DNA from: Mucispirillum schaedleri
GTDB lineage: Bacteria > Chrysiogenota > Deferribacteres > Deferribacterales > Mucispirillaceae
Length of the DNA stretch: 54,322 nucleotides
Direction of reading: 5' to 3'
Assembly: GCA_949287985.1 (NCBI GenBank)
Contig: CASEIN010000071.1
Coordinates: 1-54,322, forward strand
In this document: piece by piece, positions 2,833 to 30,703 of the stretch
Position numbering within the stretch: the first letter of the stretch is position 1
How the letters are laid out: every line of letters begins with the position of its first letter
Program-made: the position numbers and the translations under genes
Notes under the pieces: generated by a model
The model's database searches: none
What the model saw: the letters and a program-made list of their open reading frames with translations, nothing else
Told to the model about the DNA's origin: nothing

Positions 2833-3074
2833 TAATTACACCCCATTTCGTTTTCCAGCTGCATAAGCATTTCATCGCTTATGCTTTCTGATAATTTTTC
2901 AGCTACTGCTTTAAGTTTAGGGTTTTTAATGCTTGCAGAATTTACGCCGTTATCTTTTAAAAACTTAAGCATATTGTTAACATCAGCAGCAGTGACATCG
3001 CCACTTTTTATTTTGTCTAAAAAGTAATCAGAAATTTGTTCGTGGAGACTGGCTAGTTTATCTTTTTTACTCAT
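2832..3074 (-). CDS. Terminase small subunit / DNA maturase A (T7 gp18 type)
   Basis: Small DNA-packaging subunit that recognises phage concatemer DNA and works with the large terminase. The 80-residue helical protein resembles T7 gp18 (89 aa) in length, charge and place directly before the large subunit. The middle holds the pattern ITAADVNNMLKFLKDNG-like (here GDVTAADVNNMLKFLKDNG), typical of podovirus gp18 proteins. A GGAGC ribosome site precedes the ATG, which overlaps the end of the holin gene by four bases. The assignment rests on context plus weak similarity. Confidence 0.85.
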   Translation of the reverse strand: MSKKDKLASLHEQISDYFLDKIKSGDVTAADVNNMLKFLKDNGVNSASIKNPKLKAVAEKLSESISDEMLMQLENEMGCN

Positions 3075-3409
3075 TTAACTTTGCTCCTTAACTTATCTTT
3101 GATGAAAGTAACAAAGGCTTCTGAAAGAGTAAGCCCGATATCTGTTCCAGAAAAAGCAGCAAGTCCACCGATAGCCACAGCCATTTTGACTGGCACATCT
3201 GGAGCAAGCCACAGCACTGCTTCAAAAGTAAAGTATGAAATAAACATGGCAGAAAGGCATGCCCAGAACTTGTGTTTAAATGTGTATGTTTTAAGCGGTT
3301 CTTCCCTTTCGCTCCTGGCATGAAACCCAGAGAGTGCGCCAAAGATAGAAACAACGAGCAGCCAAATATATACAGAGTGTTCTTTAATATAGTCTGTGAT
3401 AGTGTTAAT
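3071..3409 (-). CDS. Holin, probable AUU start codon
   Basis: Inner-membrane pore former that triggers lysis. The protein of about 112 residues has three hydrophobic segments (near YIWLLVVSIFGAL, FWACLSAMFISYFTF and MAVAIGGLAAFSG) with a basic C-terminal tail (KDKLRSKVK), which resembles superfamily III (LydA-type) holins. It follows the two spanin genes and precedes terminase, as in many podovirus lysis cassettes. The start is unusual: AGGAG at 3421-3417 is followed seven bases later by ATT (3409-3407). The only other upstream start is TTG at 3430, which has no ribosome site and would put the Shine-Dalgarno inside the gene. No in-frame ATG occurs before the first membrane segment. Confidence 0.8.
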   Translation of the reverse strand: MNTITDYIKEHSVYIWLLVVSIFGALSGFHARSEREEPLKTYTFKHKFWACLSAMFISYFTFEAVLWLAPDVPVKMAVAIGGLAAFSGTDIGLTLSEAFVTFIKDKLRSKVK

Positions 3410-3411
3410 GG

Positions 3412-3714
3412 TTAATCTCCTTTTGTGCAAAATATAACGGTTTGCTCTAGTTCTCTTGCATAAGCAAGAATATTAATGTTGTCATAAGCAGGGCTGCCTG
3501 TTGGTTTAGGTTTTTCTGGAATTTTAGGGTTGCATTTAACGGGTATGTATACTTCTTTTATGTTTTGTTTGTAGATAGTTTTAGGGCTGCAGCCAAAGAG
3601 TATAAGTGAAAGCAGGAAGAAAAGAAAGGCAAGAGCTATATGGTGCAGGTCCGCCTTATTTTTTTTATATGTTTTTTCTTTATTCAATTTTGAAATAATC
3701 GCTTGCTCTTCCAT
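3412..3714 (-). CDS. Outer-membrane spanin lipoprotein (Rz1-like)
   Basis: Partner of the inner-membrane spanin in the last step of Gram-negative lysis, when outer and inner membranes are fused. The 100-residue protein has a basic N-terminal stretch, one hydrophobic segment (residues 28-42) and a lipobox-like LFGCSPK, after which lipid would attach to the Cys near residue 42. The following region is short and Pro-rich (CNPKIPEKPKPTGSP), as in Rz1 proteins. It overlaps the 3' end of the inner spanin gene by 35 bases in another frame, the usual Rz/Rz1 arrangement. AGGAG precedes the ATG. Confidence 0.8.
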   Translation of the reverse strand: MEEQAIISKLNKEKTYKKNKADLHHIALAFLFFLLSLILFGCSPKTIYKQNIKEVYIPVKCNPKIPEKPKPTGSPAYDNINILAYARELEQTVIFCTKGD

Positions 3715-4099
3715 TTAAAAACTCCTCTTGATTTTGTTTGATAATATGTAGAATATTTTCGCACGAGTTATTGTCTTGTATGTTTTTTGTGGTATATTTA
3801 ATCATATTATCTTTTTGTATCTGGATATTTTGCAGTGCCTGCTTATGCTGCAGGCTTGCTTTTTCTTGGTTTATCTGCAAATCTTTTATTGCTTTGTTTT
3901 GTTTATCGATGGCAATATTTGCACTTGTTAAGCTGTCTTGAAGTAATACGCCCTGTAATTGCTCTTCTTTTAGGTCTATTTCAAGAGATTTAACTTTTGA
4001 TTTATAAATTACCACCGTAGTAGCAAACGCCCCAGATAAAAGCAAAATGATAACAATAAGGGCAAGTGTTACCTTGCCCGTAGATATTAGATTAAGCAC
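3680..4099 (-). CDS. Inner-membrane spanin (Rz-like)
   Basis: Type II membrane protein with one N-terminal transmembrane helix (residues 11-31, LALIVIILLLSGAFATTVVIY) followed by a long periplasmic coiled coil rich in Gln, Lys and Glu, the design of i-spanins. It is 139 residues long. The start is GTG at 4099 with GGAGG six bases upstream. Its 3' end contains the start of the outer spanin gene, and the holin gene follows. The start overlaps the end of the HExxH protein gene by eight bases. Confidence 0.8.
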   Translation of the reverse strand: MLNLISTGKVTLALIVIILLLSGAFATTVVIYKSKVKSLEIDLKEEQLQGVLLQDSLTSANIAIDKQNKAIKDLQINQEKASLQHKQALQNIQIQKDNMIKYTTKNIQDNNSCENILHIIKQNQEEFLNGRASDYFKIE

Positions 4100-4391
4100 A
4101 ATTAGCCTCCCTGTTTGCTTCTATCTCGTAAGGGTTATTTTTATATCCATACTTTATATTGTAGTAGAGATATTTAATAATAAACTTTAACCTGCCCTCA
4201 CGGCGAACCTGCTTAATGTGGCAGTGTTCATGCTTATAGTGTGTTTCTGAAATATATGGCTCGCCGATAGTCAATATGTTTAAAAATATTGGGTCTATCA
4301 TAGCCACCTTACTTGTAGGCGAGCACATAGTTTTTTTAAATACCCATAAAATAATATTAAATGGGAAATATGCTTTTTTAACTTTCTTCAT
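4092..4391 (-). CDS. Small HExxH protein, putative metallopeptidase fold
   Basis: This 99-residue protein carries KHEHCHIKQ, a match to the zinc-binding HExxH pattern, then about 25 residues later NNPYEIEANREA. Small phage proteins with HExxH followed by NPYExEA are known and are predicted to be metallopeptidase-like, the second Glu being a possible third zinc ligand. The N-terminal half holds a hydrophobic stretch (FPFNIILWVF). It sits directly upstream of the spanins, so a part in lysis or in digesting a cell-surface layer is possible, but no substrate can be inferred. The ATG has AGGTG upstream and overlaps the previous gene. Confidence 0.55.
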   Translation of the reverse strand: MKKVKKAYFPFNIILWVFKKTMCSPTSKVAMIDPIFLNILTIGEPYISETHYKHEHCHIKQVRREGRLKFIIKYLYYNIKYGYKNNPYEIEANREANCA

Positions 4392-7064: not shown

Positions 7065-7085
7065 AACAACCTCCAAAAAACTTTA

Positions 7086-7174
7086 CAAGCCTACGGACAG
7101 GCTTGCTTTAGTGAGCAGCAAAGAATTTACTTCTGTAGCTGCGTTCTTTTTTCATTCTAGGACAGAATGAAAAA
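7086..7174 (+). repeat. Covarying hairpin cassette, unit A
   Basis: Three hairpins in 89 bases. First, CAAGCCT / AGGCTTG with loop ACGGAC (7086-7105). Middle, GCAGC (7115-7119) / GCTGC (7138-7142) with an inner AGAA/TTCT stem and loop TTTAC. Third, TTTTTCATTCT (7148-7158) / AGAATGAAAAA (7164-7174) with loop AGGAC. It lies between gp16 and the tail protein gene. Four related cassettes occur in the phage; comparison with 19715-19802 shows compensatory base-pair changes in the middle hairpin. Confidence 0.8.
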
Positions 7175-7181
7175 TAAAGGT

Positions 7182-10100
7182 TTACAAGTCACTAACATTT
7201 ACGCCATCTTTTACAAACCTTTCTATTTTATAACTTTCGCTACGCATAATGTTTTCTTTTTCCTCCTGTAGCCTTTTCGTAAAAGCGGTATTGCCTTTTA
7301 AAAATTCTCTTTGGGCTGCTTTTTTATATCTTCCCATAACATCTTCCAGCAACCCTGCACGGATACTTTTACCGTCCGTATTAAACTTATTGCCTGCCTT
7401 TTTCCATGCATAGCTTTCTGTTAAGTTTTCCAGTGCCTGCATAAGAGTTTTACCACCTATTTTAATCTGTCCCTGCAGGCGTGAAAGTTCAGAATATTCA
7501 ACTGGCGTAAGTTTTACACCTTTAATAATTTTGCTTGGTGCTCCACCTCTAATACTTTCAGCATATGGCACAACCTTTTCTAATGCAATATTATCTTTTG
7601 CATTACTCCAAAGGTATGACTGCTCTTGTGTCTGGCCTGTAATAAAATTATATTTGGCTGGTGCTTTGTCTGATAAGAAAGGAATATTAGAAGCAAAGCG
7701 TAAATCCCACTCCCCACCTGTTTCTTTCATCTGCCCATCAATTTGCCTTGCTGTAAACCGCATAGCAGATGAAAATGGAGTAAGCCCTGAAAGTAAGTTT
7801 TGTGCAGTATATTTAAGGCTTGGTGTCTCTGGGTTTTGGATAGCCTCCATTAAATCCATAACACCACTTAAGTATGTTTTATTACCTATATTTTCAAGGA
7901 TAACAGAAATGTATGTAAGTGGTGTAATAGTATCATCTCTTTTTGCCCTATCGTATGTGGTGGCAGCCATACCAAAGAAAGCGCCAAAGGGGTCAAGTCT
8001 GTTGTAAGGTATCCATTTATCCCCAAGCCTAATAGAATAAGGTAATCTTCCTTGAGCTATCCATAACTGCTTTTCTTCGCTGTCGCTTGGGTATGCTCCA
8101 GTGATTAAGCCATCAGCTGCCAGTGATACACCCATAAAACCCAACGCCATGCCAAGTGCTGCTTTACCCTCTAGTGCAGCTGCAGCTTCGCCGCCTTTTT
8201 CATACTCTCTTTTAATCCATGTGGGAGCGTGCCGCATAAATGGAGTATGCTCAATAATATCTTTGATTAAGTTTGTAGGGGTTGTAATAAACGGCACAAA
8301 TGGTCTTAATGCTGGTATGCTTTTTATAGCTATGGCAGCTTTGCCTATTTGGGTGGAGCTGTCAAGGGGCTCTGTCCAAGTCTGACGCATAGCATAATTT
8401 AAAGCTTCTTTATTTATGCCTGCTCCATTATAGAAAGCGTTATCCATCTCTTTTTGGATAAAGGCTGCTTTGTCACTTACTCCCTCTTTTATGGCTTTTT
8501 CTATTGCATTAGAATATACTTTACTTCTATAAGCCATTTGCTTAAAAAATTCATCTACTGCTCCCATTGCTCGCAGCGGGCTTTGCAGGAAACTTCCAAC
8601 ATATCCCAACGCCTTTGCAATAACATCAACTTCTCCCCTTGTGTTATAATAGGCGTCTACTGGGTTAATATTAGAGTTTTTATAAGCTGAAGATACATAC
8701 TGCATTTTCAAATCTTCGGCAATTCTTGCGGCATTGATTTTAGGATAATTTTTAGTGCTGTCTAAAATATTTCCACCAGTTTTAAGTGCAAGTTTTGCAG
8801 CCTTTAAGCTGTCTCCAAAGGCAGCTTTATATCCTGCAAACTCTCTCACGCCTTTCATAAAACTATCACTGTCGCCCCTTAATGCTCCACCTACAATTTT
8901 TTCCATTGGAGAAAATATCATTTTCATGGTAGTGCCTGCAAAGTTAAAAATGTGAGTAACAGGCGAAGATAGCAGGTTATTAACAAAATATGTCATAAGA
9001 CTTTCCCCTGCATAAGCCATGTTACTTGTTTCTTTTCTTGTAAGCATTCTTAAAAAGGCTGTTTCATCAGCAGCAAATAAACCAAGTAACGCCTGCTTAT
9101 GGGCAGGGTTATTCATATCAAGCCCCATATCAATAAGCTTTGTGGCAGCGTTTAACCTTTTGCTGTCAATTACAGCCCCATCGCCTGCTAATGTTTTTAT
9201 ATCGTTTGGGCTGATATTTAAGTTATCGTTTTTTACAGAAACTTTTTTTGTGTTTTTAAAGGCTTCTTCTTCAAGGTTATTTAAGAGTTTAGAAAGTTCC
9301 TGCCTATCAGGCTTTATACGAAGAGAGCCTAAAGCCCTGCCAAGTGATGATATAATGGTTTGAGTTCTAGCTAAAGTTGTGGCATATTCTTCATAAGCTT
9401 TTGTTAAACTTTCATTGCTTACCCCTTTATTTAAAAGGTTGTTTTCAAGCTCTTTTACAAACTTGTTAGTTTGAGCAACGGCGTCAAGCCTGTAATATAA
9501 AAGGCGTGGAGATAAAGTGTTTAGGACATTGCTGTCAATTTCTAAAAGCCGAGCCATATCTTTATCTATTAAGTCTTGGCTTTGCATTGTTTTAACTGCC
9601 AGAGCCATCTCATTGTGGCTCATCTTGTAGCCTACTTTATCCCTTACTTTATCCATAACAGCACGGTATAAATGTTTATCTTTTTCCCCTATTTTTGTAA
9701 AAGCCGGGTTTTCTCTTACAACTTTGGCAAAGGCTTCAACAACATCCGTATTGCCTCCAAGCAGCACCTCTTCTACATTGTGAGCAATATTGCCTGAAAG
9801 TTTTTCAATATCTTTTTTTAGAGCTTTATTTTTGCCGTTATTTATAATATGTTTTTTATACGCTCTATAATCATCATATTTTGCCCCAGATGAAAGTTTT
9901 ATCATCTCATCGATATTTACATCATTTTCCTTTTTTATCTCTTTTTCTGCCGCACTTCCTGCCTCATCATCTATTCTTCTTGCAGCATTTTCTGCCTGCT
10001 CATGTAATGTGGAAGCCATGTTGTTTGTAAAAGACTTATCATATACGTCTTTTAATTTATTTCTGCCGTAGGATTTAGAAGCCTTGATGATGGATAAAAG

Positions 10101-10682
10101 CCCATCAAGAGCAACACCAAGCCCAGCACTTTCAATTGCAAGCTTAAGCCTTGCCTCTGCTTTTGTGTCTGTTTCTTTTGCTGACAAAAATTCTGTTACA
10201 GGGTTTGCAAGAGATGGCACTTCATTAATAATATTTGAAAGCCTTTCTTCGTTTTCATCAAATACTGCAAAATCCCCAAGTGCGCTTTTAAAGGCAGTCC
10301 CTGCAATTTGCCCGCCTCTTGTGGTGGCATTATTAATGGCAGCAGCCGCCTTAACACCTTTTTCAAATTTAGCAACACTAGAGATAACTCCAGCAGCTTT
10401 TATAAACTTGCCAGCACCAACAAGCCCAAGTGCTCCTTGAGTAATAGTGTTTGTAATATCTCCCAAAGCTGTTTTTGTTTCAAGCTCTGGCATAATACGT
10501 TCAGCTTCTTCATCAGAAAACATGTTTGGAAGCTGCACAATACTTTCTGCGGCGTCCAGTGCTCCACCTACCACACCTCTGCCCATATCAGCAGCATAGT
10601 CTAGTATGCCTAAATCTTCTTCCTGTGGTGCTTCTTCCTGCGGTTTCCTGCTGTTATACTGTTGATTAAAATCAATAGGCAT
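7182..10682 (-). CDS. Internal virion protein gp16-like (DNA ejectosome)
   Basis: Largest phage protein (1,166 aa; T7 gp16 is 1,318), expected to be ejected into the cell with gp14 and gp15 and to form the inner-membrane part of the channel that carries DNA across the envelope. Several Ala/Gly-rich hydrophobic stretches (GALGLVGAGKFIKAAGV; LGMALGFMGVSLAADGLITGAY) and long helical regions fit this. I do not see the lytic transglycosylase domain that T7 gp16 carries at its N-terminus. The ATG at 10,682 has AAAGGAG upstream and a hairpin leader just before it. In T7 gene 16 follows gene 15 directly; here a 2.3-kb insert separates them. Confidence 0.85.
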   Translation of the reverse strand: MPIDFNQQYNSRKPQEEAPQEEDLGILDYAADMGRGVVGGALDAAESIVQLPNMFSDEEAERIMPELETKTALGDITNTITQGALGLVGAGKFIKAAGVISSVAKFEKGVKAAAAINNATTRGGQIAGTAFKSALGDFAVFDENEERLSNIINEVPSLANPVTEFLSAKETDTKAEARLKLAIESAGLGVALDGLLSIIKASKSYGRNKLKDVYDKSFTNNMASTLHEQAENAARRIDDEAGSAAEKEIKKENDVNIDEMIKLSSGAKYDDYRAYKKHIINNGKNKALKKDIEKLSGNIAHNVEEVLLGGNTDVVEAFAKVVRENPAFTKIGEKDKHLYRAVMDKVRDKVGYKMSHNEMALAVKTMQSQDLIDKDMARLLEIDSNVLNTLSPRLLYYRLDAVAQTNKFVKELENNLLNKGVSNESLTKAYEEYATTLARTQTIISSLGRALGSLRIKPDRQELSKLLNNLEEEAFKNTKKVSVKNDNLNISPNDIKTLAGDGAVIDSKRLNAATKLIDMGLDMNNPAHKQALLGLFAADETAFLRMLTRKETSNMAYAGESLMTYFVNNLLSSPVTHIFNFAGTTMKMIFSPMEKIVGGALRGDSDSFMKGVREFAGYKAAFGDSLKAAKLALKTGGNILDSTKNYPKINAARIAEDLKMQYVSSAYKNSNINPVDAYYNTRGEVDVIAKALGYVGSFLQSPLRAMGAVDEFFKQMAYRSKVYSNAIEKAIKEGVSDKAAFIQKEMDNAFYNGAGINKEALNYAMRQTWTEPLDSSTQIGKAAIAIKSIPALRPFVPFITTPTNLIKDIIEHTPFMRHAPTWIKREYEKGGEAAAALEGKAALGMALGFMGVSLAADGLITGAYPSDSEEKQLWIAQGRLPYSIRLGDKWIPYNRLDPFGAFFGMAATTYDRAKRDDTITPLTYISVILENIGNKTYLSGVMDLMEAIQNPETPSLKYTAQNLLSGLTPFSSAMRFTARQIDGQMKETGGEWDLRFASNIPFLSDKAPAKYNFITGQTQEQSYLWSNAKDNIALEKVVPYAESIRGGAPSKIIKGVKLTPVEYSELSRLQGQIKIGGKTLMQALENLTESYAWKKAGNKFNTDGKSIRAGLLEDVMGRYKKAAQREFLKGNTAFTKRLQEEKENIMRSESYKIERFVKDGVNVSDL

Positions 10683-10705: not shown

Positions 10706-10736
10706 AAGGGGACAGGTTCCTTTCCACCTTTCCCCT
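10706..10736 (-). promoter_or_regulatory. Leader hairpin upstream of gp16
   Basis: On the minus strand, AGGGG...CCTGTCCCC lies just before TTTACAAAG and the AAAGGAG ribosome site of gp16. AGGGG (10,708-10,712 region) can pair with CCCCT (10,732-10,736), or an inner AAAGG/CCTTT stem can form. It is the most imperfect member of the leader family also seen at 15,412, 15,989, 21,882 and 23,878. Confidence 0.45.
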
Positions 10737-10746
10737 ATCTAAAAAA

Positions 10747-11496
10747 TTAATTACACCCAAATAGCCTTAAAAAATACTCCTGTCCTTTTGTGGTAACTCT
10801 AGGTGTAAGGCTTATAATAGCTTTACTGCCTGTATCAATAACAGTTTCTTTTATTTGAAATAAACCCTGTTCCATAGATTTTTGGCTAGGCATATTTAAA
10901 TCTTTGCTTTTTCCTTTTATAAGGTAGCCATTTTCTCTTAAATAATCAAAAAGCCTTTTTCTGCCTATATCTACACCGTTTTGCTGTATCAGCTTTGCCA
11001 TTTGCCCTACGGATATTGTATCGCTGCTGCTTGCAACACTGTCAGCAAAAGCAACTTTAGGCTTGTTTGCTTCTATTTTATTGTTAAGCTCTGCTATTTG
11101 TCTTGCTTGGTTTAATGCAAGCTCCAGAGCTTCTACCATATTTTTAGGTGCTTGGTGGTTGTATGAGCCAGTCTTCCTTATCTGTGGTAACACATCGTTT
11201 ACTACCCACTGCCTAAAAGGGCGAGCCTTTGGTTTATCACTTCTCATTAATACGAAGTAAAGCTGTGGCTCTGTGATAAATGTTGCATTTTGCTGTCTGC
11301 CTAAATTATCAGAGATGGGGTAGATTAAATCTAGGTCATCTCCAAACTCTTTGATAATGCTTGTTTTCACATCGCTATTATTTACGATACCTAAAATATC
11401 GCACACATCTCTTAAGCAAAATAATGGGTTATCTTTATCTCCTATAACCCTAACCTGTCCTAATTCACTTTTGTTAAATACTTGTAAGTTGTTCAT
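10747..11496 (-). CDS. BRO-N / KilAC phage antirepressor
   Basis: Predicted DNA-binding antirepressor. Residues 1-110 match the BRO-N pattern (FCLRDVCDILGI, then ITEPQLYFVLMRSDKPKARPFRQWVVNDVLPQIRKTGSY). A linker helix (MVEALELALNQARQIAELNNKIE) leads to a C-terminal KilAC domain (SVGQMAKLIQQNGVDIGRKRLFDYLRENGYLIK). The C-terminal half is clearly homologous to that of the second antirepressor at 27,207, while the N-terminal halves are unrelated. It ends the inserted block between gp15 and gp16. AAGGAG precedes the ATG. No repressor that it might oppose is present in the window. Confidence 0.85.
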   Translation of the reverse strand: MNNLQVFNKSELGQVRVIGDKDNPLFCLRDVCDILGIVNNSDVKTSIIKEFGDDLDLIYPISDNLGRQQNATFITEPQLYFVLMRSDKPKARPFRQWVVNDVLPQIRKTGSYNHQAPKNMVEALELALNQARQIAELNNKIEANKPKVAFADSVASSSDTISVGQMAKLIQQNGVDIGRKRLFDYLRENGYLIKGKSKDLNMPSQKSMEQGLFQIKETVIDTGSKAIISLTPRVTTKGQEYFLRLFGCN

Positions 11497-11898
11497 TTAC
11501 TTTTTCTCCTTATAATTTACAGCTGCTTCTAATAAATTTATAAACATGTTATTATTGGCAAGCAATACATCTAACCTCATCAAGATATTGTCTATATCAC
11601 ATTGACACTCTCTTACTATTTCTATATAAAAACGTACTAGTTCTTCTGCTGTGTCAAATAATCTGGCGTTTCCATTTTCATAAAGAACAATAAACTTTTG
11701 CTTTCTTAATACTTCTAGCACTTTTTCATAAGTATTATAGTTAAAAGCTTTATCTCCATAGAGCACATTCCATTGGTTACCTACCCGTTTTGCTATCGTG
11801 CAGCTAGGCATTTGTCGTGAAAATATTTCTTGCTCGTGCTGGTTTAAACAAAAATCTCTGTCATCATGGTTTAGTAATTCTTTTTTTTGTATTTTCAT
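11497..11898 (-). CDS. Hypothetical protein in the gp15-gp16 insert, 133 aa
   Basis: I do not recognise a family. The protein is soluble-looking, with an N-terminal part rich in charged residues, a central VLYGDKAFNYNTYEKVLEVLRKQKFIVLYENG segment of alternating strands and helix, and a helical C-terminus (LLANNNMFINLLEAAVNYKEKK). GGAGG lies upstream of the ATG; the gene starts at the last base of the preceding gene's stop region and is followed at once by the BRO-N antirepressor, so the three form one transcription unit after the terminator at 12,304. Confidence 0.6.
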   Translation of the reverse strand: MKIQKKELLNHDDRDFCLNQHEQEIFSRQMPSCTIAKRVGNQWNVLYGDKAFNYNTYEKVLEVLRKQKFIVLYENGNARLFDTAEELVRFYIEIVRECQCDIDNILMRLDVLLANNNMFINLLEAAVNYKEKK

Positions 11899-12278
11899 TA
11901 TTTTTCCTCCATTTTTATTTCTTTTCTTAAGCCGACTATTACTTTGTTGTAGTCTTTAATAAGGTTTTGGATATGGGCTAAAGCTTCGCATATCTCTAAA
12001 ACCTGCTCTGTTATTTTTGCCCTTTCTCTTTTTGTAGCCCAATGGCTTTGCATACGACACGAAAGCTGCATTAAAAGAGTTTCCCTGTGAGATGTTAATG
12101 TCTCTATTTCATTTTTGATATGTTTTATTCCTGCCTTTAATGCTTGTTTTTTTGTTTTATATTTTGAGACTGTTCCGTTCCAAAACACTTGGCAGCATAT
12201 TACTTTACGTGTATCAATATCTATTTCGGTGGCAATAGTTAAATCTTTTTTGTAAAAACGTTTCTTTATATCTTCCAT
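11898..12278 (-). CDS. Hypothetical protein in the gp15-gp16 insert, 126 aa
   Basis: I do not recognise a family. The N-terminus (VICCQVFWNGTVSKYKTKKQALKAG) looks like a small beta-alpha domain and the rest is long helix, probably coiled coil. I chose the ATG at 12,278 because GAGG sits five bases upstream; an in-frame earlier start at 12,305 would lie inside the terminator hairpin. It is the first gene after that terminator. A CC motif and high Lys content are the only other notes. Confidence 0.6.
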   Translation of the reverse strand: MEDIKKRFYKKDLTIATEIDIDTRKVICCQVFWNGTVSKYKTKKQALKAGIKHIKNEIETLTSHRETLLMQLSCRMQSHWATKRERAKITEQVLEICEALAHIQNLIKDYNKVIVGLRKEIKMEEK

Positions 12279-12303
12279 ATTTACCTCATTAAATTTTGGT
12301 AAC

Positions 12304-12328
12304 AAAAAACCCCGCCAAAATGACGGGG
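12304..12328 (-). terminator. Rho-independent terminator after the secreted gp15-like gene
   Basis: On the minus strand an 8-bp stem, CCCCGTCA with TGGCGGGG around loop TTT (12,328-12,310), is followed by TTTTTTG. It sits 33 bases after the stop codon at 12,361. It separates the structural genes from the three-gene group 12,278-10,747, which then needs its own promoter or readthrough. Confidence 0.85.
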
Positions 12329-12360
12329 TAAGTGTTGTGCGTGTTCGCTTATCATTATTT

Positions 12361-13053
12361 TTAACGAAACCTGTATTCTGGTTGCACCAGAAAATTATAA
12401 TATTTTTCAGTATATTTCATGGCTTCCAATTCATCAGATACTATACCATCTGTTATTGCCTGCCTCAAAGCTTTTTCAATATCATGTTTCAACTCCAACG
12501 CAGCTTGACCATCTTTTATCTTTATATCAATATGAGTAAACACATATTTCGTTCCAGCTTTTACAAGACCGTTGGTTGTTTCTTCTTTTGTTTTAATGTT
12601 TTTATCAAGTGCTTCAAGTAATTTTTGATAGTCTGATGGGTGTATATCCCCATTGCGATAAGCATTAGTAATCTCATCTTTACTTTTAATACGACCTGTT
12701 ACAATGCCCTCTAAATAGTGGTTATAGCTTCTTAAGTAACTTTCTGTTTTAGGCACAGTATAACCTTTTATTCTTGATTTTTGATAATCAATTATAGCTT
12801 GCCCAAAAACATAAAAATCAAGTTTCAGCTTATCTGCAATTTCTTGTGGGGTTAAGGTTTCTAAATCTTCTCTAGTAAGCAAGCCAGCATTATATGCGTC
12901 TTTTAAAAGGTCTATCCCAGTATAATAATTTTTGTTATATTTTTTAGTATTTTCCTGTTGAGCACTTTTTTCAATAAATTCGCCATACGATATTACTTCA
13001 GCAAAAAGCAGGTTTGGTATAAACAATAAAAGTGCAATAATTATCTTTTTCAT
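12361..13053 (-). CDS. Secreted paralogue of a gp15 internal-virion domain, 230 aa
   Basis: The first 18 residues (MKKIIIALLLFIPNLLFA) form a clear type I signal peptide, so the protein should reach the periplasm. The rest aligns along its length with residues about 405-605 of the adjacent gp15: both have LTPQEIADKLKLD, FGQAI-DYQ, KGYT-PKTES-LRSYN-YLEGI-TGRI and HPSDY-LL. It therefore looks like a tandem duplication of the gp15 middle domain joined to a signal sequence. The start at 13,053 has GGAG six bases upstream, overlapping the gp15 stop region. A terminator follows. Function is unknown; see findings for a superinfection-exclusion idea. Confidence 0.8.
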   Translation of the reverse strand: MKKIIIALLLFIPNLLFAEVISYGEFIEKSAQQENTKKYNKNYYTGIDLLKDAYNAGLLTREDLETLTPQEIADKLKLDFYVFGQAIIDYQKSRIKGYTVPKTESYLRSYNHYLEGIVTGRIKSKDEITNAYRNGDIHPSDYQKLLEALDKNIKTKEETTNGLVKAGTKYVFTHIDIKIKDGQAALELKHDIEKALRQAITDGIVSDELEAMKYTEKYYNFLVQPEYRFR

Positions 13054-13054
13054 A

Positions 13055-15391
13055 TTAATCTCCAAGACCTTTAAATACAGTAGGGTTTTTTACATGTCTT
13101 TTTTGTCTGCTTAATATATCAGACGGTAAAAACCCATCGTTCAACAAACGTATATAATCTCGCCTTATCTTTTCATCTTTTGGCAACACTCTGCCATCAA
13201 CAACCTTAAACTCAAATCCAAACTCTTTTTCCAATACCTTTGGGTTTTTGTTATATATCTTCAACAGGTTTTCTTCTGTTAAAGTATCGCCTTTTAGCAT
13301 ACTTGTCAAGTGGTCGTCCCATTTTTCTTCACGGTATACTCCAGAGTTTCCTTTTGATTTAGCATAAGCCTGCCTTAACTGTTCCTCTGATACTCCTACC
13401 TCTCGCAAGATTTTTGCATTGTCAGAACCTAGAAAGTCCGCTTCTGTTACACCTGGCGTAAAATAAAGTTGTGGCTGAATAAGTTTGCCACTTTCGTCCC
13501 TTTCTGCTTTTGTCACTCCCTGCACAATACTTTCTGCTGTTTGCTCTTTTAATTGTAAATCATTAACTGCTGGTTTTGCAAGGTTACTATATGTTCCTGC
13601 ACCAATTTCAAATTGAGATATGGCTTGATAATATTTTTTTGCAAACTCTGCCGCTTCTAGTTCATCAGCTACCTTGCCATCTACTATTGCTTTCCTCAAC
13701 GCTTCTTCAATATTGCTTTTTAAGTTATTTGCCCTATCTGGTTCTGTAGAGCCTAGCTTAATATCAATATCTCCAAACACATATTTTAATCCAGCATTTA
13801 ATAAAGAGTTTGTTTTTACGCCTGCTGCCCCTGTATTATTATCAAACTCATTAAGAAGCCTTTCATAATCTGATGGGTGTATATTTCTATTGTGGTAAGC
13901 GTCAATTATTTCCTGCTTACTTTGTATTCGTCCTGTTCTTATGCCCTCCAGATAATAATTATAACTTCTTAAGTGGCTTTCTGTTTTTGGGGTTGTATAG
14001 CCTTTTACTCGTGCTTCTTGGTAATCAACAATAGCTTGCCCAAAACTGTCATAATCAAGCTTTAGTTTATCAGCTATCTCTTGTGGTGTTAACCTTTCTA
14101 AATCTTTTCTTGTAAGCTTACCAGCATTTAAAGCGTCCTTTAAAAAGTCCATGCCATCTTCATAATCCCTAAACTCTTTTACTTTTTTATTCTGCTCTAT
14201 TAATGCCTGTTGGTTTATACCAGTAGAGATGATTTCATTAGATAACTCTTTAGCCTCTGCCAGAGAAAAAAGTGCAATATCTTCATCATCTGAAATATTG
14301 TTATTATCTGTATGCCCCCAAGAGTTATAAGCTGCCTGTAATTCCTTATCACTGTTTGCTTTATTAAGTGTAACAATAAGCAAGGCTTCTGCCATATCTG
14401 CAAGCTCTGGCTCTTCCATAACTTCTGCTTTTATAGCAGCCATTAAACGCTCTTTTGTTTCCTGCGGCGTCATTCCCGCTCTTCCCGTTTCTCTCATTAA
14501 GCCCACAAGATTATTAACTATTGGGCTATCACTTAGCATAGCAATTTTAGAAATATCATCGGCTGCTGCTATATCTTGAATTAATCCATTATGCCCAACG
14601 CCAACCTTTCTGCCGCTTACTTTCTCATAAAGCACTGTAGCGTTTTTTAATTTTGACTGTAGCTCTGGGGTTAATTCTCCATAGGGCACGTCTGTTAGTG
14701 GCGTCTGCTTATCGTCTATTATAACAGCCATAAGCCCATCAGTAGTATTTCTTAATGTGTCCTTAAACTTATTTTCTGCTATTGTATCTCTTAAGGCTAG
14801 ATTTTTCTCATTTACATTTCTAATGTGCTTTTCTTGCATTAGGGCAAACAGCTCTTTATTTGGCATACTTTCATAATAATGCCTTGTATCATCATCATAA
14901 TTTTCCAAGTCTTTATCAAAGTTAAGCACATCATCTGCCAGTCTTTTGTTATATTCTTCTACTGATAGATTTGCATAGCCCTTATTAATATAGTCCTGCT
15001 CCAGTGTTGCTTTCTTTTTAGCAAGTAAGTTTTCTGCCATACCTTTAGCTAAATACTCCCTAGTCCAAAATGATGTGCCCAACGTATTAAACTTGCTGAC
15101 CTGCCTTTTTTGTTCCTTTAAATATTCTTCCACATTTTTATCGCCTGTTCTCATCATATTTAAAAGGTCTTTATTAGCTTGTGCTTTAGCTTTTGATTTT
15201 TGCTTTTCTATAAATTCATCTGCTAATCTGTCCCCTTGAGCACTAATGCCTTTTAAACTTTCAGCAAGGCGTATCCATTCGTTACCCTGCCCGTATACTT
15301 CATCAGGGTTAACAAAAGCTTTTGCACTCATTAGTTTGGCAGCAGGGGCTATGCTTAAGCTGCTCCTAGCGAAATCTGATTTCATTTTCAT
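13055..15391 (-). CDS. Internal virion protein gp15-like (DNA ejectosome)
   Basis: Second core protein of the virion, expected to be ejected and to form the periplasmic tube of the DNA-translocation channel. It has 778 residues (T7 gp15: 747), mainly helical, and lies between gp14 and gp16 as in T7. Residues about 405-605 are duplicated in the secreted protein encoded next to it. The start is the first of two close ATGs (15,391), with AAGGAGG upstream and a hairpin leader just before that. Sequence similarity to T7 gp15 is too low to see by eye; the call comes from order, length and composition. Confidence 0.8.
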   Translation of the reverse strand: MKMKSDFARSSLSIAPAAKLMSAKAFVNPDEVYGQGNEWIRLAESLKGISAQGDRLADEFIEKQKSKAKAQANKDLLNMMRTGDKNVEEYLKEQKRQVSKFNTLGTSFWTREYLAKGMAENLLAKKKATLEQDYINKGYANLSVEEYNKRLADDVLNFDKDLENYDDDTRHYYESMPNKELFALMQEKHIRNVNEKNLALRDTIAENKFKDTLRNTTDGLMAVIIDDKQTPLTDVPYGELTPELQSKLKNATVLYEKVSGRKVGVGHNGLIQDIAAADDISKIAMLSDSPIVNNLVGLMRETGRAGMTPQETKERLMAAIKAEVMEEPELADMAEALLIVTLNKANSDKELQAAYNSWGHTDNNNISDDEDIALFSLAEAKELSNEIISTGINQQALIEQNKKVKEFRDYEDGMDFLKDALNAGKLTRKDLERLTPQEIADKLKLDYDSFGQAIVDYQEARVKGYTTPKTESHLRSYNYYLEGIRTGRIQSKQEIIDAYHNRNIHPSDYERLLNEFDNNTGAAGVKTNSLLNAGLKYVFGDIDIKLGSTEPDRANNLKSNIEEALRKAIVDGKVADELEAAEFAKKYYQAISQFEIGAGTYSNLAKPAVNDLQLKEQTAESIVQGVTKAERDESGKLIQPQLYFTPGVTEADFLGSDNAKILREVGVSEEQLRQAYAKSKGNSGVYREEKWDDHLTSMLKGDTLTEENLLKIYNKNPKVLEKEFGFEFKVVDGRVLPKDEKIRRDYIRLLNDGFLPSDILSRQKRHVKNPTVFKGLGD

Positions 15392-15411: not shown

Positions 15412-15427
15412 AGGGGACAAGTCCCCT
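15412..15427 (-). promoter_or_regulatory. Leader hairpin upstream of gp15
   Basis: The near-perfect hairpin AGGGGAC-TT-GTCCCCT overlaps the gp14 stop and is followed on the minus strand by TTTACAAAG and then AAGGAGG before the gp15 start. It belongs to a family of five same-oriented hairpins at late gene junctions. Confidence 0.65.
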
Positions 15428-15974
15428 AAATTTTTGTCCTTCTCATACCGTCTGCTGTGCTTCCCATAGCAATGCTTCCAATATTTAAAGCTGTGCCTGC
15501 CCACCTAGCAGCTGCATTACTTTGCTTAATATCCTTAAGCCCTGCTATTTGGTTTTTAGCAGACTTCATATACATACTTCTTGCCATATTATGCTGGCTC
15601 TCCTGCATTCTTAAATTTGCCTGCATAAGCGAATTATCTTGAGCGAGCATTCTGCTATACTCATTGCTTGTAAGCCGTGCTGCAAGCCCTTCGCTTTCAC
15701 TTCCTGCTTCACTTGTTGCTGCTTGCTGCATATTATTAATTTTTGCTTTAAAGCCCTGCTCTGCCGCCTGCTTTCTTTCCTGCTGCTGCTGCAGGCCCTC
15801 CTGCCTAGATAAGTCGTTGGCTTCTTCTATAACCATATTAGCGTTATGCACATTGGCTTCATTTTGTGCTTCTATGGCTTCCTTTTCTTGATACATTTCC
15901 GCAACTGTGCCACCTATGGCACTTACACCCGCAATAATCCCTGTTGCTATTGATACTGGTTCACAAATATCCAT
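15426..15974 (-). CDS. Internal virion protein gp14-like
   Basis: Smallest of the three ejected core proteins, which forms the outer-membrane pore of the DNA channel in T7. It has 182 residues (T7 gp14: 196). The N-terminus is hydrophobic and Gly-rich (VSIATGIIAGVSAIGGTVAEMY), the middle is a long Gln/Glu/Ala-rich helix (RQEGLQQQQERKQAAEQGFKAK), and the C-terminus again Gly/Ala-rich, which is the gp14 layout in podoviruses. An AAGGAGG ribosome site and a leader hairpin precede it. Confidence 0.8.
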   Translation of the reverse strand: MDICEPVSIATGIIAGVSAIGGTVAEMYQEKEAIEAQNEANVHNANMVIEEANDLSRQEGLQQQQERKQAAEQGFKAKINNMQQAATSEAGSESEGLAARLTSNEYSRMLAQDNSLMQANLRMQESQHNMARSMYMKSAKNQIAGLKDIKQSNAAARWAGTALNIGSIAMGSTADGMRRTKI

Positions 15975-15988
15975 TCCTCCTTAAGAAC

Positions 15989-16002
15989 GGGGACAAGTCC
16001 CC
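15989..16002 (-). promoter_or_regulatory. Leader hairpin upstream of gp14
   Basis: GGGGACAAGTCCCC forms a 6-bp hairpin just before TTCTTAAGGAGG and the gp14 start on the minus strand. It has the same core as the hairpin before gp15. Confidence 0.6.
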
Positions 16003-16062
16003 TTTCTTCCTTTCCCCTACGCCACTTTGCTTTCGCTCACCGCTCAAACAAAGCATAAGGAT

Positions 16063-19406: not shown

Positions 19407-19464
19407 AAATATTTTTCTCCTTATAAACAAAATACGTGGAATAATCCACGCATTTTTACTTTTA

Positions 19465-19554
19465 TTTTTTATTCTGTCCATAGAATAAAAAAATCTCCGC
19501 TTGGTCGCAGTGAATGCTCTCAAGCTTGCTAAAGAAGCCCTGTCCTTAGGGCTT
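19465..19554 (-). repeat. Covarying hairpin cassette, unit B1
   Basis: Read on the minus strand: AAGCCCT / AGGGCTT with loop AAGGAC (19,554-19,535), the spacer containing GAGCATTCACTGCGACC (19,519-19,503), then an A/T-rich stem ending ATTCT / AGAAT with loop ATGGAC (19,492-19,465). It lies between the capsid gene and tail tube A. The spacer word is shared with units B2a and C, not with A and B2b. Confidence 0.8.
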
Positions 19555-19694: not shown

Positions 19695-19714
19695 ATTATT
19701 GTTTTATTGTTTTA

Positions 19715-19802
19715 CAAGCCTACGGATAGGCTTGCTTTAGTGAGTAACAAGGAACTTGCTTCCGTAGTTACGTTAAATAAAAAATACAAGGACGTATTTT
19801 TT
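19715..19802 (+). repeat. Covarying hairpin cassette, unit B2b
   Basis: CAAGCCT / AGGCTTG with loop ACGGAT (19,715-19,734); middle hairpin GTAAC (19,744-19,748) / GTTAC (19,767-19,771) with inner GGAA/TTCC; then AAAAAATAC / GTATTTTTT with loop AAGGAC (19,779-19,802). The last hairpin abuts the capsid stop codon. Compared with unit A the middle hairpin differs by three compensatory pairs. ACAAGGACGT in the last hairpin equals the consensus for CsrA/RsmE binding on RNA. Confidence 0.8.
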
Positions 19803-23710: not shown

Positions 23711-23766
23711 GTTTCACTCCTCGCAAAAATGAGCAAAGCCCAGTTTTTGCTCCTCGTTTATTTTTA

Positions 23767-23856
23767 TTTTTCATTCTGTCCGTAGAATGAAAAAAGAACG
23801 CTTTGGTCGCAGTGAATGCTCCCGCACTTACTAAAGCAAGCCTGTCCATAGGCTTG
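23767..23856 (-). repeat. Covarying hairpin cassette, unit C
   Basis: On the minus strand: CAAGCCT / AGGCTTG with loop ATGGAC (23,856-23,837), spacer with GGGAGCATTCACTGCGACC, then TTTTTCATTCT / AGAATGAAAAA with loop ACGGAC (23,794-23,767). Beyond it (23,720-23,760) follow two GAGGAG direct repeats flanking an imperfect hairpin with GGGCTTTGC at its tip, which recurs at 28,434. Confidence 0.8.
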
Positions 23857-25522: not shown

Positions 25523-27214
25523 CTAGAATGGCACATTGTCTTTTTCTTTATTGTTGTCCACATTGAAGTCTGGTATATCATTTGGGTTTTCCCCATTGTA
25601 TGCAAGCAGCCTGCCTGTCTGTCTTGAATATATTAAATGGTCGCTTTCCCCACAGACACCAGTTGGTCTGTTCTTTAATATCCGTATACGTGATACATTC
25701 TTATTTATCCCCTCTGCCTGCTGGTCTCTTTCTAGTGCCACCACCACATCTGAAAGCTGCTCTAAAGCACCACTGCCTCGTAAATCTGTCAATGATACCT
25801 GCCTGCCCTCATTCCAACTTTTTCCCTTGTCCGATGGTCTTTTTAAATGCACCACCGCCAAAATGGTTACACCTGTTTCTTCACACAAGCTTCTTAAGTT
25901 TGTCATAAACATATCTATGGTTTTTCTTTCATCAGTGCCCTGCTCTTTTTCATCAAGACCAGAAATAACTATGCTTATATGGTCAAGCACTAAAACTTTG
26001 CAGCCAAGTGATTTAACCATACTTCTTATTTTTGGCATAAGCACTTCTGTTGCCTGTGAGCCAAAATGATTATAGACGTAAAAGTTATCTTTTATGGCTG
26101 TGTTGTAAGCCTGCTCATATTCTTCATCTGTAAAGGATATTTCTGCACTTAACATATTTTTATTCATTGCCATGCTTAAGTGCCTCTGTGCCGTTGTTCT
26201 TGCATTCTCCTCAAGGCAGATTAACCCAACAGGCAGCTTATGCTGGACATGCATATGGTATGCTATCTCATGCACAACCGTGCTTTTGCCTATTCCGCTT
26301 CCTGCTGTAAAAAGCCAAAGCTCACCCTGCCTAATCCCCTCTGTTTTATTTTCTAAATCTGGGTAACATAATGGCAGCCCCCTTTTTCTTGGCTTCCTGC
26401 ATTCATTATACAAGCTTTCTCCTGTTAGGATATAGTCTGGCGAATATGGTTTAGCTTCCCATATTGCCCTTAAGATTTCCTGAACCTTGCCTTTTACTAA
26501 GCATTCGTTTATGTCCTTTTCTGGAAAGTGTGCTATTCTCACTTTGTGGGGGCTTACGATTTCAGCACATTCATAAGCTGCTTTCCTGCCTGCTTCATCC
26601 ATATCAAATGCGAATATTACTGTTTCGTAACTTTCTATCCATTCAAGGTGACGAGCAATATCGTTTTTTGCTCCACCTGCACCGTTCTTCACGGATACTA
26701 TGGCACAAGGGTATTTCTTTTCCCAAGCTTCATAAAGAGAAAGAGCGTCTATTTCACCCTCACATATAACAAGGCGCTTCCCTCCGCCCCCATAAAGATG
26801 TGCTCCAAACATTAACGCCTGCTTGTTATCCCCTTTAATGAGAAAAGACTTATCAGCAAAGCGTAACTTTTGAGCACACACCTGCCCTTTTTCGTTTCTA
26901 TATTCTGCTACTTGACAAGCTTTACCGTTATACTGTGATATCCCATAGCCGTACTGTTTGCAGGTGGCAGCACTAATCTTTCTTGTTTTTATTTCCTTAT
27001 GTTCAAGAGAGCTTATAAGCTCATCTTTTTTACTTATCTTTACTTCTGATATATTAGTCTCCTTATATCTGTATTCTTTTGTTGGTTGCTCTGTATACCC
27101 ACAGGCAAAACAATATGTTGAGCCATCTTCATAGACTGCCATATTGTTGCCCTTACGGTCTCCACCGCTTTGCCTGCACTTAGGGCAGGCTGTGTGATAA
27201 AGATATTTACTCAT
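25523..27214 (-). CDS. Primase-helicase (T7 gp4 type)
   Basis: Bifunctional replication protein. Residues 9-38 hold the primase zinc finger (CPKC...CFAC), a TOPRIM domain follows (VICEGEIDALS near 150; FAFDMDEAGRKA near 200), then the DnaB-like helicase with Walker A GSGIGKST near 308 and VLVLDHISIVISG near 420. Length 563 is the same as T7 gp4 (566). The C-terminus (NKEKDNVPF) is acidic/polar and ends in Phe; in T7 the acidic, Phe-ended tail of gp4 binds the gp5 polymerase, which is missing here. It begins inside the end of the antirepressor gene (8-base overlap) without an obvious ribosome site. Confidence 0.95.
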   Translation of the reverse strand: MSKYLYHTACPKCRQSGGDRKGNNMAVYEDGSTYCFACGYTEQPTKEYRYKETNISEVKISKKDELISSLEHKEIKTRKISAATCKQYGYGISQYNGKACQVAEYRNEKGQVCAQKLRFADKSFLIKGDNKQALMFGAHLYGGGGKRLVICEGEIDALSLYEAWEKKYPCAIVSVKNGAGGAKNDIARHLEWIESYETVIFAFDMDEAGRKAAYECAEIVSPHKVRIAHFPEKDINECLVKGKVQEILRAIWEAKPYSPDYILTGESLYNECRKPRKRGLPLCYPDLENKTEGIRQGELWLFTAGSGIGKSTVVHEIAYHMHVQHKLPVGLICLEENARTTAQRHLSMAMNKNMLSAEISFTDEEYEQAYNTAIKDNFYVYNHFGSQATEVLMPKIRSMVKSLGCKVLVLDHISIVISGLDEKEQGTDERKTIDMFMTNLRSLCEETGVTILAVVHLKRPSDKGKSWNEGRQVSLTDLRGSGALEQLSDVVVALERDQQAEGINKNVSRIRILKNRPTGVCGESDHLIYSRQTGRLLAYNGENPNDIPDFNVDNNKEKDNVPF

Positions 27215-27944
27215 AGGCAGAGAATTTATTTAAGAAATATTGCTGACCTTTACCTGTAACTAATGTGCTTTTAGTGACAAGCTGATAAGTGCTGTAATCA
27301 ACAACACTTTCTACCACTTTAAATAAACCCTGTTTCATATACTGTTGTGTAGGTAAGTTCTTATCTCTGCCGCTTTTGATTAAGTAACCCTTATCTCTTA
27401 AATAATCATAGAGTTTATTTCTGCCTATGTTTACACCATTATTTTGCAGGTATCTTGATAACTCTGTAATGCTTATGCAGTGTTTGCTGTTTGTTACCGC
27501 TTCAGCAAATGCTACCTTTGGCTTATCCTGTTCTATCTTTTCATTAAGAGCGTTTATCTGCTTCGCCTGCTCCAGTGCTAACTCTAATGCCTCAACCATA
27601 TTAGTAGGTGCTTTAATTTGTTTTCTTAATTCTTTTTCACAGGCTATAAAATACTTCCTTACTTGATTACCTTTCTCGTTTCTTTCAAGCATTGCTATAT
27701 TTTTTGCAAGGTCTAATGACAAGGCGTATTCTCTTGCTTTTGTTGCACCTGTTTCTCGTTTGATAATTTTATCAAATGAGATATAGTCTTCATTCTCTAC
27801 TGCGTAAGCCTGTTCTAATCTAGCCTTAACCCAATGTGTAAATTCCTGCTTGCTTTCCAGTGCCTGCCATAAATCCCTTGCAGTTACGCTATTTACTTTA
27901 TCATTATTAATTATCTGCTCTTCTATTTTTATTAGTTTTTTCAT
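27207..27944 (-). CDS. AntA-type / KilAC phage antirepressor
   Basis: Residues 1-110 match the AntA/AntB family (VNSVTARDLWQALESKQEFTHWVKAR, shown in part, then LSLDLAKNIAMLERNEKGNQVRKYFI). A linker nearly identical to that of the other antirepressor (MVEALELALEQAKQI) joins a KilAC domain (SITELSRYLQNNGVNIGRNKLYDYLRDKGYLIK). It lies between amidase and primase-helicase, where T7 has no such gene, just after a terminator, so it looks like an added gene. The two antirepressors share a C-terminus but not an N-terminus, a case of domain swapping inside one genome. CCTTATG-like and AAGGAG sites precede the ATG. Confidence 0.85.
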   Translation of the reverse strand: MKKLIKIEEQIINNDKVNSVTARDLWQALESKQEFTHWVKARLEQAYAVENEDYISFDKIIKRETGATKAREYALSLDLAKNIAMLERNEKGNQVRKYFIACEKELRKQIKAPTNMVEALELALEQAKQINALNEKIEQDKPKVAFAEAVTNSKHCISITELSRYLQNNGVNIGRNKLYDYLRDKGYLIKSGRDKNLPTQQYMKQGLFKVVESVVDYSTYQLVTKSTLVTGKGQQYFLNKFSAYE

Positions 27945-28001: not shown

Positions 28002-28409
28002 TTAGATAAAATTATTTTCTTTAGCCCACTGCTTCACATCAAAATTAGGGCAAGTCTTATTAGGCTCATAATCACAATGCCCTACAATATTTGCATTTGG
28101 GTATTTAGATTTTAACTCTAACAGTAAACCTCTTAAAGTTTCCCACTGTTTATCTGTGTAATCATTTACTGGCTTATTCTTTGTGCCGTCCTTAATGCCG
28201 CCTACAAGGCATATCCCTATGCTGTCTTTATTGTGCCCTTTGCAGTGTGCCCCTGCCTCTTCCAAACTTCTACCATTTTCAAGGCGTCCATCTCGCCTTA
28301 TCACATAATGGTAGCCTATACCATTCCAACCACGCTCCCTGTGCCAGCGGTCTATTTCCTGCCTGCCTATATCCATTTTAGACGGTGTCGCAGAACAATG
28401 AATAATAAT
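28002..28409 (-). CDS. N-acetylmuramoyl-L-alanine amidase (T7 gp3.5 lysozyme type), no AUG in frame
   Basis: Zinc amidase that cuts peptidoglycan and, in T7, also inhibits the phage RNA polymerase. The alignment with T7 lysozyme runs from IIHCSAT (zinc His) through IDRWHRERGWNGIGYHYVI, AHCKGHNKDSIGICLVGG to GHCDYEPNKTCPNFD. An ATG at 28,376 would lose the essential IIHCSAT segment. Upstream, the frame offers only ATT codons (28,409, 28,406, 28,403; also 28,418) after AAGAGG at 28,425-28,420. A well-spaced ATG at 28,414 is in another frame and stops after 15 codons, so a one-base deletion in a former ATG start is the alternative. I use 28,409 as the start. Confidence 0.85.
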   Translation of the reverse strand: MIIHCSATPSKMDIGRQEIDRWHRERGWNGIGYHYVIRRDGRLENGRSLEEAGAHCKGHNKDSIGICLVGGIKDGTKNKPVNDYTDKQWETLRGLLLELKSKYPNANIVGHCDYEPNKTCPNFDVKQWAKENNFI

Positions 28410-30487: not shown

Positions 30488-30703
30488 TTTAACACACAGA
30501 AAGAAAAAATAATTATTTTTTTTTGGCTTATATATTATTAATATTTAATATATTATATATAATTTATTTTTTTTCTTCTTTTCTTTTTTTTGTTACTTTT
30601 TTTTCTTTTCTTCTTTTTTTTGTTTTGTTCTTTTCCTTTTTCCTTGTTTTGATTTTTTATTTCTTTTGGTTTTTTCTTTTTTTTTGTTTAAAATTTATCA
30701 GCC

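Follow-up and report, generated by a model that had tools for sequence, protein, structure and literature searches.

A putative periplasmic copy of a gp15 ejection-tube domain in a T7-like prophage, a possible decoy against superinfecting phages

The ejection genes and P0001

A T7-like prophage occupies positions 1 to ~33.9 kb (1-33924) of the window, the whole stretch of 54,322 nucleotides that was analyzed, a single contig belonging to a genome of 2.4 Mb. Its host is a gut bacterium related to Mucispirillum. Its genes encode terminase, spanin-like and holin-like proteins, fibers, gp16, gp15, gp14, nozzle, capsid, portal, primase-helicase, and a single-subunit RNA polymerase (E=3e-247), and host genes such as nhaB are found from 34.1 kb onward. 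The features discussed below are:

15426-15974, minus strand, gp14 homolog (outer-membrane pore ejection protein; Pfam T7_gp14, E=1.2e-14)
15391-13055, minus strand, gp15-like ejection-tube protein P0002, 778 aa (flanking gp14 and gp16 genes, and hhalign)
About 14236-13607, minus strand, source-like domain of P0002, residues ~386-595 (BLASTP with P0001)
13053-12361, minus strand, gene for the predicted exported gp15 domain, P0001, 230 aa, ATG start (translation and BLASTP)
13053-13000, minus strand, predicted signal peptide of P0001, residues 1-18 (rule-based scan)
Within 12361-13053, minus strand, mature tube domain of P0001, residues 19-230 (gp15 homology)
12340-13151, minus strand, exchanged cassette comprising the last ~32 gp15 codons and the slot gene (blastn against the sister prophage, L006)
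12309-12329, minus strand, intrinsic terminator ending the unit of gp15 and slot gene (identical in the sister, L006:14329-14309)
11898-12305 and 11497-11898, minus strand, small unknown genes downstream of the slot gene, between gp15 and gp16
10747-11496, minus strand, anti-repressor gene between gp15 and gp16
7182-10682, minus strand, gp16 homolog (inner-membrane ejection protein; phrog_6651, E=4.6e-64)
3071-4391 and 28002-28376 (an amidase), candidate lysis genes

The gp16 homolog is 31% identical to gp16 of Desulfovibrio phage ProddE, and the nozzle gene of the same T7-like structural operon is recognized at E=1e-143. P0002 has no single-sequence match to the gp15 of T7 or ProddE, matches no family, gave no hit in a PDB sequence search, and has no relatives among IMG/VR or INPHARED sequences. 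Against a profile built from 45 gp15s encoded on gp16-bearing contigs, it scored an hhalign probability of 96 (E=5e-9), compared with at most 0.5% for 15 control proteins that included gp16, fibers, and host proteins. On synteny and this profile match, we accept P0002 as the gp15 of the phage. It resembles T7 gp15 (7K5C; PMC8954989) in its position between gp14 and gp16, its predicted all-helical character, and its presumed place in the tube, but the two share no sequence match and T7 lacks an exported partial copy. Full-length P0002 was modeled poorly by AF2 from a two-sequence alignment, at a pLDDT of 47, with residues 410-590 as the best-predicted region.

Among 60 related genomes, a relative of this gp15 was found in only one, which belongs to the same genus, and among 51 genomes of the phylum a relative of the prophage gp16 was found only in that same genome. 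This sister prophage resides in an uncultured Mucispirillum MAG (CALUZC010000004.1), where it is flanked by a tyrosine integrase and, at its opposite end, by host aromatic-amino-acid genes. Since the sister is integrated beside a tyrosine integrase, the phage is temperate.

The Shine-Dalgarno sequence of P0001, GGAG, lies inside the last codons of gp15. The N terminus of the protein, MKKIIIALLLFIPNLLFA^EV, contains two Lys, a 13-residue hydrophobic core, and A at -1; the signal peptide was called by our own rule-based scan and inspection, not by SignalP, and would carry P0001 to the periplasm. An initial annotation of this DNA had described a signal peptide joined to a gp15 domain in the gene after gp15, and this holds: 124 of 215 residues are identical between P0001 and the neighboring P0002 (58%, E=3e-74, BLASTP), although the homology covers gp15 residues ~386-595, slightly upstream of the 405-605 first given. 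The first residue past the predicted cleavage site is also where the homology starts (EVIS in P0001, EIIS in gp15).

Modeled alone, as that annotation had advised, the mature domain is all-helical, with a pLDDT of 76 and 80-94 in its core, and it is predicted with confidence to be a helical unit by itself. No alignment was obtained that maps the copied domain directly onto T7 gp15 residues; by position, it would fall in the C-terminal half, matching the part of T7 gp15 (residues 304-704) that rearranges during ejection and is stabilized by gp16 (PMC8954989). P0001 matches no family or defense entry in PADLOC, Pfam, PHROGs, or NCBIfam and has no relatives in IMG/VR, INPHARED, or GTDB contigs besides the sister gp15 itself. 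Foldseek searches of the domain against the PDB and BFVD gave no significant match; T7 gp15 (7k5c_A) was listed at E=5.9, and the lists contain podovirus internal virion proteins with scores too weak for use.

At the codon level, P0001 and the neighboring gp15 are 65% identical in nucleotides (pN 0.28, pS 0.61), and the P0001 reading frame is intact, with no stops and no frameshifts. The nucleotide identity by itself rules out an assembly duplication as the source of P0001, and these codon-level results together also rule out fresh debris. The dN/dS ratio is 0.27 for P0001 against the neighboring gp15, 0.21 for P0001 against the sister gp15, and 0.21 for the two gp15s, with synonymous change near saturation in the P0001 comparisons (dS 1.3-1.7). 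Since a far higher ratio would be expected under free drift, P0001, at ~0.2-0.3, looks to be under purifying selection and retained as a protein. P0001 lies at much the same distance from the two gp15s (57% and 56% identity; 4 versus 2 private residues shared), which rules out a recent in situ duplication of the neighboring gene and places the split before the divergence of the two phages. Its origin appears to be an old duplication or acquisition from a more distant relative.

The slot between gp15 and gp16

The sister prophage is collinear with the window prophage at 85-95% DNA identity but has different DNA in place of 12340-13151. The sister cassette supplies a different gp15 C terminus (~35 residues) and one gene:

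L006:14358-14804, P0003, predicted lipoprotein of 148 aa in the sister prophage (G005:C4), overlapping gp15 translationally

The 3′ end of gp15 is a recombination joint. P0003 carries an N-terminal lipoprotein signal (MVLKYIKILLLVAIMFTCFSA^C). Both known occupants of the slot have a predicted exported product, begin no more than a few bases from where gp15 stops (a 1-nt gap in the window phage, an overlap in the sister), and share the terminator ACCCCGTCATTTTGGCGGGGT-TTTTTG. No link of P0003 to ejection proteins or to P0001 was detectable, nor any family match, and a weak match in another genome (G012, E=0.003) was discarded as the gene there looks unrelated on reading. By rule-based scan and reading, 3 of 35 genes in the phage look exported (~9%), and the chance that the sister slot gene would also be exported is roughly one in ten; two exported slot genes are therefore suggestive, not decisive. 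We regard P0003 as a candidate exclusion lipoprotein.

Genes in this position are otherwise rare. In 97 of 101 other T7-like gp15-gp16 arrays, no gene lies between the two, the remaining four having an ORF without a signal peptide, and in ProddE, the closest characterized phage, the three ejection genes are adjacent. Given this rarity, the slot is a place for cargo and not part of core morphogenesis. The region between gp15 and gp16, with the slot gene, two unknown genes, and the anti-repressor, is an accessory insertion in a normally unbroken operon. The initial annotation had looked to widespread pairing of gp15 with an exported gp15 domain as support for a function. No such pairing, and no gp15 paralog, was found in any of the 101 other arrays, and the exported copy is a single case, one gene in one phage. 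Conservation outside this genome, which that annotation had also made a test of its proposal, is formally absent for the domain copy; the slot, however, is conserved and in the sister holds another exported protein.

Two minor observations concern this region. Some T7-group contigs carry a 149-aa ORF without a signal peptide in the gp15-gp16 gap (L129:9213-9662, L133:9198-9647, and L147:9198-9647). The window prophage encodes two anti-repressors (10747-11496 and 27207-27944) that share a KilAC-type C-terminal half (52% identity), and the location of one of them between gp15 and gp16 is unusual for a late operon.

Possible functions of P0001

When would P0001 be made? Promoter-like sites that could serve P0001 in a lysogen were no commoner than in shuffled sequence. 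Coupling of the gene to gp15 makes late production probable and favors late lytic growth over the resting lysogen as the time of expression. The proposal of the initial annotation, a decoy type of superinfection exclusion, is still the best reading, given the exported protein in the sister slot and the precedents below, but its placement in the lysogen gives way, with the coupling to gp15, to late lytic growth.

It is an even call, in our judgment, whether P0001 is a piece of the gp15 tube that Sec exports to the periplasm and that works there as a dominant-negative decoy against superinfecting phages with related ejection proteins. In such a mechanism, P0001 would be translated together with gp15, as its place directly behind that gene shows, and the signal peptide would carry it to the periplasm, apart from the progeny gp15 being packed in the cytoplasm. 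T7 gp15 straightens, refolds, and hexamerizes in the periplasm, where it is stitched by the N-terminal tape of gp16 (PMC8954989). An incoming phage would similarly eject gp14, gp15, and gp16, and its gp15 would refold and hexamerize in the periplasm. The free domain, still gp15-like in sequence, could then occupy a gp15-gp15 or gp15-gp16 contact, leaving the tube incomplete and keeping the DNA out; we infer both this binding and the resulting exclusion. Action would most likely fall late in the lytic cycle, with sibling and related phages as its targets, while action in a lysogen would need a promoter, and none was seen here.

Three precedents, SieA, Ltp, and truncated φX174 pilot proteins, show that this step is vulnerable. 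SieA of P22 blocks the gp20/gp16 conduit (PMC10883804). Like the product proposed here, it is an envelope protein encoded by a prophage, and it prevents injection of DNA by interfering with a conduit of ejection proteins. It is, however, an inner-membrane protein, is expressed from the prophage, and has not been described as copying an ejection protein (PMC10883804), whereas P0001 is predicted to be soluble, consists of a domain from the tube protein, and is coupled to late genes. Ltp of Streptococcus thermophilus phage TP-J34 is a lipoprotein that targets the tape measure protein and is active in a secreted soluble form (PMC3952083). It too is an exported phage protein directed at a channel-forming component, and the sister P0003 is likewise a predicted lipoprotein; Ltp differs in having repeat domains of its own, in not being derived from its target, and in being encoded in a lysogenic conversion module (PMC3952083). 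The third precedent is the H pilot (tube) protein of φX174, N-terminally deleted forms of which inhibit early infection, according to the title of Ruboyianes 2009 (cited in PMC8310164 and PMC7354561). Going by that title, a host-made piece of a tube-forming protein blocks early steps of infection, although these fragments are laboratory constructs from an unrelated ssDNA phage, not a natural exported gene. The initial annotation knew of no exclusion system of this design; that point is weakened by SieA, Ltp, and the φX174 H fragments, which are relatives in kind, truncated or envelope-exposed and able to block a DNA conduit.

More tentatively, and a little short of even, we propose that the prophage turned its own tube domain, or that of a relative, into a Sec-exported decoy, and that the slot is one in which relatives swap exported anti-ejection proteins. 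Jointly with this proposal, and held just as tentatively, export would serve both to place P0001 where incoming tubes assemble and to spare the phage's own virions. If true, P0001 would be a natural dominant-negative virion channel protein used as immunity of phage against phage, and exclusion would work because the injection tube is mimicked at the molecular level, whereas SieA and Ltp are unrelated proteins. It would also provide a small, soluble, and testable probe for periplasmic tube assembly in podoviruses, and in temperate T7-like phages more envelope-acting exclusion genes could be sought at the gp15-gp16 junction.

Other explanations can be envisioned. The strongest, though unlikely, is that P0001 is an accessory envelope protein in which a periplasmic tube domain has been put to other use, such as binding peptidoglycan or membrane, timing lysis, or changing the host surface. 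The slot is an exchangeable cargo site, and the unrelated lipoprotein of the sister need not target ejection. However, P0001 keeps 58% identity and most gp15 motifs under apparent purifying selection, which suggests that a gp15-like surface still matters, and the candidate lysis genes lie elsewhere.

Less likely still, P0001 could be a remnant or neutral by-product, a partial gp15 copy left by recombination with a hydrophobic start acquired by chance. That it is a single instance, absent from the sister, and adjoins a recombination joint would fit such an origin; the frame, however, has stayed intact through a dS of 1.3-1.7 at a dN/dS of 0.2-0.3, the Shine-Dalgarno sequence is good, and the signal peptide is joined exactly at the start of the domain.

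It is improbable that P0001 assists ejection of its own phage, acts as a chaperone, or forms part of the virion, even though it shares a translational unit with gp15 and could oligomerize with it. Since assembly is cytoplasmic and ejection occurs in the next cell, before phage genes are expressed there, a protein sent to the periplasm cannot be of help to the virion of its own phage. The helper and structural-dose options raised in the initial annotation are disfavored accordingly, as a Sec signal would remove P0001 from the assembly compartment; in addition, ProddE, T7, and 97 of the 101 arrays work without a gene here, and the sister has an unrelated lipoprotein in its place.

Least probable of all is that a periplasmic decoy in lysed debris keeps newly released virions from losing their DNA to sister cells that are already dead or dying, a purpose for which Llp of T5 is an analog; late expression with gp15 fits this better than it fits lysogen immunity, but the anatomy is the same as for the exclusion decoy and no data separate the two.

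Other features of the prophage

The prophage at 1-33924, together with L155:10043-11032, represents a temperate T7-like phage that is integrated in Mucispirillum, encodes a single-subunit RNA polymerase of its own, and has almost no relatives in IMG/VR and INPHARED. The palindrome GGGGACTTGTCCCC occurs just upstream of gp14 and gp15 (15989-16003 and 15413-15427), and gp16 is preceded by a degenerate copy (10708-10722); 0.3 sites would be expected by chance. An exact copy lies upstream of the sister gp14, and the palindrome may be an operator or a signal for the phage polymerase. Dispersed intergenic repeats, 80-86% identical, are present at 7082-7145, 19711-19774, 19455-19550, and 23757-23852; the same repeats are also scattered through the sister prophage, in different places, and could be terminators, promoters, or recombination joints. 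Finally, we note a nearly pure T-rich tract of ~140 nt on the plus strand (30546-30689), which separates the RNA polymerase gene from the early genes.
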